Part shown: one piece after another, positions 6,259 through 16,488 of the stretch | Position numbering within the stretch: position 1 is the stretch's first letter | How the letters are laid out: each line of letters begins with the position of its first letter | Origin: Paraglaciecola hydrolytica | Lineage (GTDB): Bacteria > Pseudomonadota > Gammaproteobacteria > Enterobacterales > Alteromonadaceae | Assembly: GCF_001565895.1 (NCBI RefSeq) | Contig: NZ_LSNE01000007.1 | Location: forward strand, 320,845-384,844 | Direction: 5' to 3' | DNA length: 64,000 bases | The notes under the pieces: model-generated | The model's database searches: none | The model's input: the letters and a program-made list of their open reading frames with translations, nothing else | Told to the model about the DNA's origin: nothing | Translations under genes and position numbers: made by a program

Positions 6259-6612
6259 ATGTCAACCAATTACGATAAAGTTTTTGCTCAGCAGCAAGAG
6301 TACATCGCTAAACGTGCCTCGGGTTATCGCGAACAAGCCCTTAAAATATATCCTTGGATTTGTGGTCGTTGCCGGCGCGAATTTACCCGCAGAAACCTGT
6401 CTGAGCTAACGGTTCATCACGTCGATCACAATCATGATAATAACCCCACTGATGGCAGTAACTGGGAATTACTGTGCCTGTATTGCCATGATGAAGAGCA
6501 TAGTAAGTTTGAAAATTTGGTGCGTTACGGCAGTGCCGAAGAGACTGAAATCAAAAGCAGTACCTACAATCCTTTTGCGGATTTGAAAGAGAGGATGAAG
6601 GGGAAAAATTAA
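6259..6612 (+). CDS. yajD: YajD-family HNH nuclease
   Basis: Small HNH-type nuclease family protein, 117 residues, the usual YajD length. The zinc and catalytic elements are visible: CGRCRREF, then LTVHHVDHNHDNN (HH of the HNH core), the Asn-containing DGSNWELLCLYCHDEEH, with four Cys able to bind zinc. AGGT sits about nine bases before the ATG. Its biological role is not established. A degenerate second copy of its last third is found at 9643-9714, beyond the two genes that follow, so this locus has been rearranged. Confidence 0.9.
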   Translation: MSTNYDKVFAQQQEYIAKRASGYREQALKIYPWICGRCRREFTRRNLSELTVHHVDHNHDNNPTDGSNWELLCLYCHDEEHSKFENLVRYGSAEETEIKSSTYNPFADLKERMKGKN

Positions 6613-6776
6613 AATCCTTATTCACCGTAAAATGTTGAAGGATTATGGTATTTGCTACCTCACGTTAGTGTTCATAACTGCGTTATTGGTATTCTTAAAC
6701 TAGTTAATATTCGACTTGTTCAATCGTTTTAGTTTAATTACATTATCGTTATATCGATTATGAGCTTAAATTTCAT

Positions 6777-7634
6777 ATGATTTACCAATTTGATCATTTT
6801 ACGTTAGACACTACTCAATTTCGATTAACAATAAATGGTTCATTGGCAAATGATGATATTCGAATTATTAGGCTCCTAGCTTTAATTATTCAGACTTCTC
6901 CTAATACCTGCAGTAAGTCTACTATTCGTGAATATATTTGGCCAAATACGGTTGTATCAGATTGGTCAGTGTCACGTTTAATGGCGGATACTCGCAAATT
7001 ATTTAAACACTACGGTTATATAGGGCCACTGATACAAACTGTTCATGGCCAAGGGTATCGCTTAGATGCCAATTTATTTGACCAGCTCAAAGGTATTGAA
7101 CTTCTAACATATAGTACTCCCGTATACCGTAAGTTAAACCTCATGCAAAAATGCGGGATCAAGAGACCTAATATATTGCTAATAACAGTTTTGTTTGGTG
7201 TTGCCATTTTTGTTGGAATAACGACTAACTACAAGTTAAATGCAAATAGTGTCATTTACAGTGAATCGAGCACTGATGTTGCTCGAATATTATGGGTTGA
7301 TGATCATCATCAAAATAATCAACGAGAGCAGCAGTATTTTGTTGAAAATAATATAGCGGTATACAGTGTAGTTTCTACCGAAGAGGCTATTTTGCTGCTT
7401 AAGATATACAAATATACAGCAATCATTTCTGACATGGGTAGAGATTCTGACCCTCTTGCCGGTATTAAATTATTGGATGCGATTCGGGAAACGGGCATCA
7501 CAACACCTTTTTATATTTACACTATCGTCAGCAGTCCTGATTTGGAAGTTGAAGTAGCTAAACGTGATGGGCAGGGCGTAATTACTCAGCGGACAAACTT
7601 GTTTAGCTCTGTTCTAAATCACGTTAAACAGTAA
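6777..7634 (+). CDS. Membrane regulator: winged-helix, one TM segment, receiver-like domain
   Basis: 285 residues with an unusual order. Residues about 5-97 are an OmpR/CadC-type winged helix (TVVSDWSVSRLMADTRKLF recognition region and TVHGQGYRL wing). Residues 132-150 are one hydrophobic segment. Residues about 169-285 look like a response-regulator receiver: ILWVDDHHQNN with the acidic pair D175/D176, IISDMGR with the phospho-acceptor D219, then T249 in FYIYT. The usual conserved Lys after beta-5 is not evident. Lys and Arg before the segment and few after it predict a cytoplasmic winged helix and a periplasmic receiver, which would be odd. AT-rich compared with neighbours. The lipoprotein gene 183 bases downstream is a likely target. 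Function inferred. Confidence 0.8.
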   Translation: MIYQFDHFTLDTTQFRLTINGSLANDDIRIIRLLALIIQTSPNTCSKSTIREYIWPNTVVSDWSVSRLMADTRKLFKHYGYIGPLIQTVHGQGYRLDANLFDQLKGIELLTYSTPVYRKLNLMQKCGIKRPNILLITVLFGVAIFVGITTNYKLNANSVIYSESSTDVARILWVDDHHQNNQREQQYFVENNIAVYSVVSTEEAILLLKIYKYTAIISDMGRDSDPLAGIKLLDAIRETGITTPFYIYTIVSSPDLEVEVAKRDGQGVITQRTNLFSSVLNHVKQ

Positions 7635-7817
7635 AACGTTTGCTATTTCTATATTTTCACAACGTTTCAAAAGATTTCACATCTATTTTCCTTGAATTTT
7701 GCATAATGTTCAAAGCGGCGAACAGTGCAAATTACTGGCTTAGTAACGCTATACAAGGAGGTAATGATATTCATCACCATCCATAGATATTTCTATTTAA
7801 AATTTTTAGAGGTAATC

Positions 7818-9581
7818 ATGAAAATCAATAAGTTGATATGGATTTTTATAGCGGCACAATTGTTGTTTGCTTGTGGAGGATCTGGAGGGGATGATGATAA
7901 TGACGAGCCAGATCAATTTGCTATTGGAGGAATTGCCCAAAAGCTCAATGGTACGGTTTATTTAGGGTTTAAAAAAAATGGGGCGCAAAATTATTGGGAA
8001 ACGGTTGGGGTTACTTCAACTGGTGGTGAAGTGAACTGGCGTTTTATCGAAGAACATGATGTTGGCACTCAATTTGACGTAAGTGTATATGTGCAACCAC
8101 AAGGGCAGTTGTGTAATCTAGAAAATGGCAGTGGAGCCCTGAATGCCAGTAATGCTAATAAAATTATCGTGACCTGTGAAGATACTAATGAAAATTTGGC
8201 TATTGGGGTAGAAATAAGCAATCTAGTTGGTGAGCTAACCTTGCAACTTTCAGTTGATAATATAGCAGTCGAAACAATTACATATAACCTAGGTGGACAA
8301 GCCACTTTCTATTTCGACGAAAAACAAGCTGCGGGTGTGAATTTTGCCATCGACATCCTGACGCAGCCAGAAGATCAGCAGTGCACTATTACTTCGGCTA
8401 GCGGTAACCTTAACAGTGGCAATGCAAGTACGGCTAAAATAGTGTGTACTGACAAGCCAACTGAGTCAGTGGTATTAACAGGGATTTTTGTTGACAGCCC
8501 TGTGACTAATATTAGCTTTAGCACGCTGACACAACAGGGGGTAACTAATATTAATGGCGAATTTTCCTACAGTGAAAATGAACAAGTAACCTTTACTATC
8601 GGTGAAATAATATTTCCAAGCGTATCCGCTGGGGAAATTCTGACTCCTCTTGATATTGCGGCTACCAATAATTTTAATGCGCCGAGTCTAATTAATATGC
8701 TGCGCTTGCTGCAAACCTTAGATATCGACGCCGATCCTACTAATGGTATTAATATTAGTGATGCCGCTTTAGCCAATGCCACAGCTGTTGATTTTAACCT
8801 ACCAGTCATAGAGTTTGCGGCACAGCCTGCTATTACTCATCTATTAGCAAATGCAGGTTTGGAATCTTTGGTAAGCGAATTAGTGAGCTCCGAACAAGCT
8901 CAAACACATTTTCTAGTTACGTTGATCGAACTAGGTATAATTGAACAACCTCCAACGGCTTGCAATGAGGATGTAAGCTATTCATTAACTGGTCAGGATC
9001 TCATTATGGGAACTAACGATTCATTAAGTACTTCCCCTCTTTCAGGCACTCTGACTATCTCTAATACTGGAGCATGTCAACTTAACGCTAATGAAGGTTA
9101 CGAAAGTGCGTGCACCATAACGGATGGCGTATTTAGTGCCTTTAACGGTCGGTTAACAGGTACAATTGCTAATTCGGAAGTGACTATCCTGAATCAATCA
9201 ACATTTAGTGATGATGAGTACGTTAGCGCCTACTTAAGCGGTAATTCAACCACGAGTTGTATTGATGAACCCGTTGTTGATGGTACTTACAGTTTTTCAG
9301 GCCTTGAATCAGTCTCTCAGAATTCTGTTACTAACGGCGCTTCGCCAGCAAACCAAGTGTATCCAGTTACCGGAACCGTAACGATTAGTGGAAGTAGCTG
9401 TTCGGTTACTTCTAGTGAAGGCGACTGGAATTGCATAGTTAATGGTAACTCCTTTCATGGAGTTGGTGATTTAAGTGTTATTCAAGGCACAATAACCTAC
9501 TTTAGCGTTAGTTTTTACCTGCCACCTACCAGTGATGGTGAAGAGACTGTTTTTGGTCAATATAGTGGTAAACGTAACTAG
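7818..9581 (+). CDS. Large modular lipoprotein with paired repeats
   Basis: Predicted exported lipoprotein, 587 residues, from the ATG at 7818 with AGAGG upstream; in-frame GTG 7725 and ATG 7764 would spoil the signal peptide. Lipobox LLFAC puts the lipid on Cys19, followed by a Gly/Asp linker. Two repeats (about 35-122 and 127-212) each carry a Cys pair with identical 21-residue spacing (C99/C120, C189/C210). A third unit (about 218-370) starts LTGIFVDSPV and contains TPLDIA, a module seen in marine gammaproteobacterial surface proteins. Two more repeats (about 386-475, 489-584) share TLTIS/TVTIS cores with a Cys pair. Function unknown; adhesion or surface binding is a guess. Confidence 0.8.
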   Translation: MKINKLIWIFIAAQLLFACGGSGGDDDNDEPDQFAIGGIAQKLNGTVYLGFKKNGAQNYWETVGVTSTGGEVNWRFIEEHDVGTQFDVSVYVQPQGQLCNLENGSGALNASNANKIIVTCEDTNENLAIGVEISNLVGELTLQLSVDNIAVETITYNLGGQATFYFDEKQAAGVNFAIDILTQPEDQQCTITSASGNLNSGNASTAKIVCTDKPTESVVLTGIFVDSPVTNISFSTLTQQGVTNINGEFSYSENEQVTFTIGEIIFPSVSAGEILTPLDIAATNNFNAPSLINMLRLLQTLDIDADPTNGINISDAALANATAVDFNLPVIEFAAQPAITHLLANAGLESLVSELVSSEQAQTHFLVTLIELGIIEQPPTACNEDVSYSLTGQDLIMGTNDSLSTSPLSGTLTISNTGACQLNANEGYESACTITDGVFSAFNGRLTGTIANSEVTILNQSTFSDDEYVSAYLSGNSTTSCIDEPVVDGTYSFSGLESVSQNSVTNGASPANQVYPVTGTVTISGSSCSVTSSEGDWNCIVNGNSFHGVGDLSVIQGTITYFSVSFYLPPTSDGEETVFGQYSGKRN

Positions 9582-14985: not shown

Positions 14986-16488
14986 ATGTTCAAAGCGTTA
15001 CCTTCTGCAGTAACACAACTTTTATCTCGTATTGCAGATAATCAGTTGGCGTTGATGGCGGCTGTTTTGCTCGAAGTATCGATTCGGCACTTTTCTTACC
15101 ATAGCCAAAACTATGCGGATTTTTTGACAACCTGGCTGCAATTATTGTTTGAAAGCTCGCCGTTATTGTTAGCCCATTATTTTGCTTTCAAAACCCGGAG
15201 TTGGCTGTCGGTGTTTGTCTGGGGCATGGGTTTCATCCTCTATCCCTGTATGAATTTATGGCTAATGGATAGCTATCAACCCTATGTAGACTGGGCATTT
15301 TTTGGGGTACAGGGTTGGATTTTTCTGTGTATTGCCAGTATCGGTTATAGCTTAAGCTGTTTGTTGGCTAAAAGGCATAACACCAAATCCATGCTGCTGA
15401 TGTCACGTTTGTTTTCGTTAAATGCCGTGCTGTTGATGTTGTTAGTCGGTTGGTCTGTATTATGGGCTGGTATTTTTGCCTCGACAGACGATCCGATACA
15501 CAATCAACCGATTAAAGCGGTGATTAACAGTGAAACGGTGATTGTAAACTTCGGCGACTTTCTTAACTATTGGTGGCAGTTTTTACTCATGGGGGTGGCT
15601 GTTTTACTGATTTATGGGGTCAATCGCTATCTACTGATTCGCCGTGTACTGGCCAATAGCGGGGTGTTTGCCTATGTTGCAAGTTGTTTGATTTGTATTA
15701 TTGTGATGACTCCCATTCTGGCATCAGCGGTATTATGGCTACCGATGAACATTCCTGAATGGACCTTTTTACCCTCAGAAGATTATAAGATATTTGCACC
15801 GGTAAACTTTCGTTTCAGTTTTTTTGTGATCGCCATCAGTACCCCAATTATTCTGGCTTTTGAGCGCCAGCAACATGAAAAAGCGCTGGCTGAAATCGCC
15901 CAGCGGCAAAGTCAGACCGAATTGCAGTTGCTTCAGCAACAGGTTAATCCACATTTTTTATTTAATACCCTGAATAATCTGTATGCACTGACCTTAACTG
16001 GCTCTAAAGCCGCGCCTGATTTGGTGATGCAATTGGCTAATTTATTGCGATACACAGTTTACGAAGGCCAGAATCAACGAGTGACCTTGGCGCAGGAAAT
16101 TGACTATCTACAGGATTTTTTAGCCTTGCAGGCGATCCGTAGTGGTGAAAAATGCACAGTGCATACCGCTTTTCCGCTGGATGCAGAACACTGGAAAATT
16201 GCGCCTTTATTGCTGATCATTATTGTTGAAAACGCTTTTAAACATGGTGTTGAACCGTCACAGACTCACTGTCATATAAGTCTGGATATGCAAGTAAAAA
16301 ATGGACAACTTTTAATGCAGTGCAACAATAGTCTGCCTAATAAAAGGCCTCAACTCAGCCCAGGTATAGGCCTAGAAAACCTACGCCGTCGACTGGCTTT
16401 GCTGTATCCAGGGAAGCACAATTTGAACGCTATGCAGCGGGGCGAACAGTGGCAATCAAGTCTAAGCGTGGAACTCGAACCTTGTTAA
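14986..16488 (+). CDS. LytS-type sensor histidine kinase
   Basis: Membrane sensor kinase, 500 residues. About seven hydrophobic segments fill residues 20-295. The His_kinase domain follows (about 315-395) with the phospho-acceptor in QQQVNPHFLFNTLNNLYAL, then an ATPase domain with the N-box IIVENAFKHGVE and G-box GIGLENLRRRL. This layout is that of the LytS/YehU class, which pairs with LytTR regulators. Its stop overlaps the start of the next gene, a LytTR regulator. The signal is unknown; substrates or products of the adjacent ABC/M1 transporter are plausible. Confidence 0.92.
   Translation: MFKALPSAVTQLLSRIADNQLALMAAVLLEVSIRHFSYHSQNYADFLTTWLQLLFESSPLLLAHYFAFKTRSWLSVFVWGMGFILYPCMNLWLMDSYQPYVDWAFFGVQGWIFLCIASIGYSLSCLLAKRHNTKSMLLMSRLFSLNAVLLMLLVGWSVLWAGIFASTDDPIHNQPIKAVINSETVIVNFGDFLNYWWQFLLMGVAVLLIYGVNRYLLIRRVLANSGVFAYVASCLICIIVMTPILASAVLWLPMNIPEWTFLPSEDYKIFAPVNFRFSFFVIAISTPIILAFERQQHEKALAEIAQRQSQTELQLLQQQVNPHFLFNTLNNLYALTLTGSKAAPDLVMQLANLLRYTVYEGQNQRVTLAQEIDYLQDFLALQAIRSGEKCTVHTAFPLDAEHWKIAPLLLIIIVENAFKHGVEPSQTHCHISLDMQVKNGQLLMQCNNSLPNKRPQLSPGIGLENLRRRLALLYPGKHNLNAMQRGEQWQSSLSVELEPC

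Follow-up and report, generated by a model that had tools for sequence, protein, structure and literature searches.

Few signalling domains are as common in bacteria as the receiver, which, to our knowledge, has been described only in the cell interior, as a reader of phosphate. Response regulators of the OmpR/PhoB family bind tandem DNA repeats that recur about every 10 bp. Among the membrane-bound regulators, ToxR has a box of the form TNAAA-N5-TNAAT, which lies at −51 to −37 of ompU according to the excerpted text of the source (PMC7496328), and a census of transmembrane transcription regulators reports response-regulator domains in 9.2% of them (PMC10269533). Its passages on these domains contain no mention of a receiver outside the cytoplasm. 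Exact-phrase literature searches for a periplasmic or extracellular receiver, or for a membrane-bound or periplasmic response regulator, returned no paper, and broader searches returned none on a receiver outside the cytoplasm.

The window in this study is a 64,000-nucleotide stretch of Paraglaciecola hydrolytica DNA, in which an open reading frame at 6777-7634 on the + strand (ATG start, 285 aa) had been predicted to encode a winged helix, one membrane segment and a receiver, in this order, with the receiver lying outside the cytoplasm. The gene and the parts of its protein are as follows:

6777..7634, + strand: regulator gene, winged helix, membrane helix and receiver (open reading frame, Pfam, AlphaFold2 model with a mean pLDDT of 87.8)
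6777..7100, + strand: winged-helix DNA-binding domain, residues 1-108 (Trans_reg_C, AlphaFold2, Foldseek)
7173..7241, + strand: single membrane helix, residues 133-155 (hydropathy 2.26, Lys/Arg 5 versus 1, helix in the model)
7278..7631, + strand: receiver-fold domain, residues 168-285, predicted to be periplasmic (Response_reg, model, Foldseek, no Cys)

The domain order was borne out by Pfam, hydropathy and AlphaFold2. In Pfam, Trans_reg_C matched residues 32-96 with 31.1 bits (cut-off 26.2), and Response_reg matched residues 171-270 with 30.1 bits, 0.1 bit short of the cut-off of 30.2; in a search of the whole genome, the window receiver scored 32.1 bits and was above the cut-off. The AlphaFold2 model, made with a 23-row alignment as input, consists of a winged helix up to residue 108 (pLDDT above 90 in ten-residue blocks for residues 1-100), a low-confidence linker (residues 109-130), a helix (residues 133-155) and a complete (beta-alpha)5 domain (residues 169-284). 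Using Foldseek, the N-terminal part matched the DNA-binding domains of CadC (5ju7, target TM 0.78) and ToxR (8b4b, target TM 0.75), and the C-terminal part matched receiver domains with target TM values of up to 0.85. By both AlphaFold2 and Foldseek the C-terminal domain is a receiver, and the proposed likeness to ToxR and CadC is substantiated by the OmpR-type winged helix found by Pfam and by these fold matches.

Homologues with the same domain order were found in many genomes. Sixty-five sequences with both domains were collected, which left 60 once exact duplicates were dropped, and all 60 distinct homologues, gamma- and alphaproteobacterial ones among them, keep the architecture; the regulator is therefore not a product of chance, a fusion artefact, a frameshift or a misread frame. 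As these sequences are related, counts over the 60 homologues are not independent. One of those counted, L083:2907-3737 from Shewanella hafniensis, has a frame that stops early in the receiver; its tail is unrelated and suggests a frameshift. A second full-length copy of the regulator (42% identity) is present on another contig of the P. hydrolytica genome. Searching with a single protein gave matches at E values of at most 1e-20 in 9 of the 295 genomes from the taxonomic family, and with a profile query, 23 of 394 genomes of the order matched at E values of at most 1e-25 (16 full-length, P. hydrolytica included, one cut by a contig end and six with the winged-helix part alone). A scan of 369 genomes of the class gave full-length matches in P. 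hydrolytica only, together with one additional winged-helix-only match and one receiver-only match. A scan of genome contigs with the single-protein query gave no match, and an alignment query succeeded. The scan of named-species genomes with an alignment query covers the best 80 of at least 83 loci, and the matches listed add Shewanella, Pseudoalteromonas, Ferrimonas, Microbulbifer, Rheinheimera, Marinobacter (as labelled) and Luteimonas as well as alphaproteobacteria (Sphingopyxis, Sphingomonas, Croceibacterium and Parvularcula). Matches to PPR repeats were judged spurious. At L097 (Sphingopyxis sp. H115), a 612-aa winged-helix membrane protein is encoded directly downstream of the regulator; its C-terminal part is different and helical-repeat-like by eye, and the two are related membrane regulators in tandem.

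The most hydrophobic 19-residue stretch of the regulator, starting at residue 133, has a Kyte-Doolittle value of 2.26 and is flanked by five Lys/Arg residues on its N side and one on its C side. A hydrophobic segment lies between both domains in 60 of 60 homologues (mean Kyte-Doolittle 2.24), with a hydropathy of at least 1.6 in 59 of them and a minimum of 1.29 in L104; no homologue among the 60 lacks it. When Lys/Arg residues within about 15 residues of the segment are counted, the N side has the larger number in 51 proteins, both sides are equal in 9, and the N side never has fewer. As the winged helix must reach DNA, this N-side excess predicts a periplasmic receiver. The cysteine content agrees with this orientation. 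The 60 receivers contain 2 Cys in 7,507 residues (58 have none, and those with Cys fall into 2 of 35 clusters at 60% identity), as compared with 135 in the 8,551 residues that precede the membrane segment in these proteins, an inside count that is inflated by a common Cys of the DNA-binding domain found in 43 of 60 proteins (when this winged-helix Cys is left out, 121 of 164 pre-receiver Cys remain). Ordinary receivers of the same genome, 29 from its 30 strongest receiver matches and assumed to be cytoplasmic, have 37 Cys in 3,221 residues, with Cys present in 23 of the 29. In 17 subfamily relatives with other architectures, there are 6 Cys in 2,014 residues (Fisher p 0.0018). Hydropathy, charge and Cys computations thus agree on a single membrane helix with the N terminus in and the C terminus out, and the predicted location outside the cytoplasm is supported by the charge bias and the computed Cys depletion. 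Judging from sequence, the receiver of the regulator is probably periplasmic.

Within the receiver, D175, D176 and D219 are present in 60 of 60 family members and T249 in 59 of 60. The near invariance of these residues favors an alternative that we consider quite unlikely, in which the segment is embedded in the membrane but does not span it, or folds back as a hairpin, and the protein, its receiver being cytoplasmic, is an anchored response regulator of reversed order that is phosphorylated at D219. It would also be in keeping with the relatives of other architectures, whose receiver appears to be inside the cell and tethered by a membrane anchor, and with the plentiful kinases of this genome, which has 55 HATPase_c matches and a LytS-type kinase gene (His_kinase) at window 14986-16488, 7.35 kb downstream of the regulator. 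However, no HATPase_c match was found within 8 kb of either regulator copy, and the LytS-type gene has its own receiver gene directly behind it (G000:C7:337338, window 16494). A cytoplasmic receiver is further opposed by the presence of one segment of normal transmembrane length in every homologue, by a charge bias that is never reversed, by the depletion of Cys from the receiver, and by the lack of a switch Lys in most of the family.

The switch-Lys column, which holds Lys in 29 of 29 ordinary receivers of the genome, is occupied by Gln271 in the window regulator; within the family, an aligned Lys is found in 12 of 60 members and none in 48. Of the residues by which response regulators are recognized (acidic pair, Asp, Thr/Ser and Lys), Gln271 stands in place of the last. 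The original prediction was right that the acidic pair, D219 and T249 are kept and that the Lys is absent, but the missing Lys does not serve as evidence of location. It can be ruled out as a sign of periplasmic life, as 16 of the 17 relatives with other architectures are also without it (Lys in 1 of 17), making its loss a trait of the wider subfamily. The absence of the switch Lys from most members, and the fact that kinase chemistry is not expected outside, would fit a receiver that is a dead remnant, whose pocket no longer functions and which serves only for dimerisation or as a spacer in the periplasm. We find this very doubtful, since W173, D175, D176, N181, D219, R222 and G229, which surround the acidic pocket, are conserved in 60 of 60 members, beyond what a spacer should require. 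N180 is invariant in the family as well, and W173, R222 and G229 are found in 17 of 17 relatives with other architectures. As a point against phosphate-free sensing, the conserved acidic pair, Asp and Thr could mean that phosphorylation still matters.

Among these relatives are a TIR-receiver protein (L066) and short proteins with a membrane segment and a receiver. In the latter, Lys/Arg residues are in excess after the membrane segment in 12 of 14, equal in one and distributed as in the family in one, and the charges of these 12 predict that the receiver is inside. Given this opposite charge pattern, the family looks like a receiver subfamily that was turned outward by being joined to a winged helix and a membrane helix. 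An N-terminal anchor followed by a receiver of the same subfamily was seen at L109-L113, L115, L116, L119, L120, L128, L143 and L180-L182; many such anchored proteins are found in Actinobacteria. The TIR domain that is joined to the receiver at L066:7131-8084 (+) weakly matched ThcB4 of Thoeris type III (31.2 bits, cut-off 220), and for this reason the receiver subfamily may also serve in anti-phage proteins.

Behind the regulator gene, three features were assigned:

7655..7684, + strand: tandem direct repeat TTTCACAACG TTTCAAAAGA TTTCACATCT, probable operator (position, conservation, genome scan)
7702..7707, + strand: -10-like hexamer CATAAT, tentative (17 nt past the third repeat unit)
7818..9581, + strand: gene for a large lipoprotein (587 aa, lipobox LLFACGG), probable regulated gene (sequence, weak SslE/AcfD match, model)

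The downstream lipoprotein is real, the Cys of its lipobox being Cys19 of the open reading frame counted from 7818. That this lipoprotein is the target or partner of the regulator had been suggested previously, and the suggestion gains support from the gene order and from the conserved tandem repeat between the two genes. A large lipoprotein gene is next to the regulator, on the same strand, in 17 of 60 loci, the window among them. Fourteen of these were obtained by rule (at least 450 aa, at most 600 bp from the regulator) and three lie beyond it: the window and L016 were recognized by eye, and L052 came from an earlier rule. Rule-based lipoproteins are next to the regulator in 12 of 35 clusters, as compared with 5 of 349 other open reading frames of 23 regions; the binomial value of 5e-14 for this enrichment is rough because several open reading frames per locus were tried. 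No large lipoprotein was found next to the regulator in the remaining 43 loci.

The lipoproteins are of more than one type. That of the window matches its counterparts at L052, L055, L057, L077, L083 and L104, and a second group is formed by those of L015-L019, L023, L053 and L062, in which PKD domains were found in all three proteins scanned (L015, L018 and L023). The window lipoprotein gave no match to this second (PKD) group at E 0.01; weak matches occur across the groups (e.g., L023-L052, L053-L083 and L104-L019), and the lipoproteins of L054 and L093 stand apart from both. Both regulator copies of P. hydrolytica precede a lipoprotein gene, one of each group. The N terminus of the window lipoprotein weakly resembles SslE/AcfD lipoproteins (23.9 bits, cut-off 800), and its N-terminal module is present twice; four relatives have one copy and two have none. 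Its model shows N-terminal beta modules and, as most of it is of low confidence (mean pLDDT 56.1), the matches to Gram-positive stalk domains are only a hint. By eye, the same N-terminal module is resembled by a small lipoprotein of 127 aa (L056:9083-9466) and by an exported-looking 142-aa protein behind the regulator of L108.

The regulator and lipoprotein genes are 183 bp apart, and in this gap lies the repeat, which consists of three tandem 10-bp units of the form WTTCA-N5. In a search for three W[TA]TCA units separated by 5-6 bases, the triple repeat was found in 39 of 60 loci (46 matches), always 3-215 bp downstream of the regulator and on the same strand, and nowhere else in the 811,737 bases of the 60 loci; five Markov simulations gave 1, 3, 0, 0 and 3 matches. 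The 17 gaps in front of lipoprotein genes reach a total score of 241 out of 255, with 173 (sd 3.4) expected from dinucleotide shuffles, but the motif was first spotted by eye in these same gaps, and the positional count is the fairer test. The L018 gap taken alone is not significant (92 of 500 shuffles). Most units in the 17 gaps read TCAAA, and the outer units of the window read TCACA. The exact triple repeat is probably the operator of the regulator.

The strict triple repeat occurs twice in the 5.2-Mb genome of P. hydrolytica, one of these at the window locus. The other exact copy (L186:1501-1525; G000:C3:843511-843535) lies between a convergent gene, which we take to encode an FKBP-type isomerase lipoprotein, and what we take to be a GreA/GreB-like gene. 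In 21 other genomes bearing the regulator there are 22 exact sites, of which 14, spread over 13 genomes, lie behind the regulator; a reversed-pattern control gave 4 matches, and no exact site was found in 5 of the 21 genomes. Altogether, the 22 genomes have 24 sites, 15 behind the regulator and 9 elsewhere (one in P. hydrolytica). A wider regulon was rejected; 7 of the 8 distant sites checked have no relative of the lipoproteins within 1.5 kb (8 of the 9 sites were taken in; L209, which overlaps L208, was left out). One distant repeat, L193:1501-1525 (G308:C2:185885-185909), is the exception, lying 267 bp behind a gene related to the window's lipoprotein group (41% identity to the lipoprotein of L052) and before a convergent gene. 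Autoregulation from the regulator's own promoter was also rejected, no triple repeat being present upstream of or within any of the 60 regulator genes; at window 6610-6790, there are no direct repeats and two short inverted pairs. A repeat score of at least 14 out of 15 was reached in 42 of 53 loci without an ENSLAK-type recognition helix (37 of 46 with the WS type, 5 of 7 with neither motif), as compared with 0 of 7 with ENSLAK, 2 of which score 13. As the ENSLAK group is mostly alphaproteobacterial, helix type is not separable here from GC content and ancestry.

A -10-like hexamer 15-21 nt past the repeat is enriched in 16 lipoprotein loci (1 of 300 and 0 of 300 simulations were as good). 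The spacing would place the third repeat unit at about the -35 region, where such an activator would sit. In 32 loci without a lipoprotein, the result was negative (128 of 300 simulations were as good), or weak when a fourth repeat was allowed (27 of 300). A promoter at fixed spacing over all loci was not significant (21 higher, 19 lower, 2 equal), and a Sigma-70 scan of window 6500-8000 gave 7 sites with 6.7 expected.

The repeat stands behind the regulator whatever gene comes next, and 26 of the 43 loci in which no large lipoprotein was found still carry it in exact form. This favors an unlikely reading in which the repeat controls the regulator transcript or a short terminated RNA, the lipoprotein being an occasional neighbor rather than the target. 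Consistent with such a reading, a hairpin followed by a T-run within 420 nt was found in 19 of 32 repeat loci without a lipoprotein versus 1 of 16 with one. In Shewanella it is present in 12 of 14 loci (not in L058 and L060), 93-211 nt past the repeat, and the first open reading frame of at least 90 aa behind the regulator is convergent in 11 of 14. However, a regulator gene needs a terminator anyway; large lipoproteins are strongly over-represented next to it, in more than one type and twice in the P. hydrolytica genome; the -10-like hexamer is enriched in lipoprotein loci only; and Rfam gave no match in seven loci with the repeat and a terminator. A stretch ahead of the hairpin, TTCTTCGATTA, is conserved in seven loci without a large lipoprotein, and a terminator of the form TTCTTCGATTAGCCACCT..AGGTGGC plus T-run past the repeat was seen at L059, L071, L073, L095, L099, L101 and L102. 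The conserved stretch and hairpin may simply mark where the regulator mRNA stops, or they may belong to a short RNA under the control of the regulator.

The reading that we favor, and consider fairly likely, is that of a ToxR-type one-component regulator whose receiver acts as a phosphate-free outside sensor, controlling the lipoprotein gene through the repeat. It is built on what was computed: the order of the domains, their fold and conservation, the bias in charge, the scarcity of Cys in the receiver, the repeat and the order of the genes. From these we infer the receiver location, a metal, DNA binding and the direction of control in the following way: the winged helix would be in the cytoplasm, with one helix passing through the inner membrane and a periplasmic receiver replacing the usual sensor; the receiver would not be phosphorylated by a kinase, and its conserved acidic pocket would probably hold a divalent metal; the pocket and the face around W173, N180/N181 and R222 may sense a ligand, an ion or a protein partner, and a changed pairing of receivers would be passed on to the winged helices; and these would bind the three repeats directly behind the regulator's own gene, which, lying roughly at the -35 region of the promoter downstream, would bring the large lipoprotein gene under control.

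A broader reading, on which we are evenly balanced, is that an outside, phosphate-free receiver sensor acts through about one DNA site per genome, behind its own gene, with interchangeable outputs: certain lineages would use large surface lipoproteins of different types, and others possibly a short terminated RNA. A conserved family with its receiver outside would be a test of what the receiver fold can sense without phosphorylation, and, if the receiver is indeed outside, of why the acidic residues survive while the switch Lys does not. The recognizable repeat behind the gene is a ready reporter with which topology, signal and target could be studied together.

When compared with known systems, the regulator shares the two domain types of OmpR/PhoB response regulators, but differs from them in the reversed domain order, the membrane helix in between, the lack of a switch Lys and the predicted outside location of the receiver. 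By sequence, the receiver itself groups with response regulators and departs from them in the Lys column and, probably, in its location. As in the hybrid transmembrane transcription regulators, a response-regulator domain is present in a membrane-bound regulator; the census, in its passages on such proteins, treats them as hybrids with two-component core domains or kinase parts (PMC10269533). The receiver belongs by sequence to the same subfamily (LWVDD.P.N....D..R) as those of the TIR-receiver protein L066 and the membrane-anchored proteins of Actinobacteria and Proteobacteria; unlike the regulator, these relatives join it to a TIR domain, a large protein or an N-terminal membrane anchor. With CadC, ToxR and TcpP, the regulator has in common an OmpR-type winged helix, one membrane helix, a C-terminal domain predicted to be outside and a candidate operator of direct repeats. 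The repeat resembles the ToxR box in its core and promoter position and is equal to it in period, as far as the excerpted source describes that box (PMC7496328), although only the middle unit of the window fits the ToxR core TNAAA and there are three units where the ToxR type has two. The domain predicted to be outside is a receiver fold, unlike the periplasmic folds of CadC or of ToxR/VtrA as presented in the excerpt of PMC9214523, and a further difference is that it is free of Cys in 58 of 60 homologues. Taken together, the regulator is probably ToxR/CadC-like, both in its architecture and in its mode of action.
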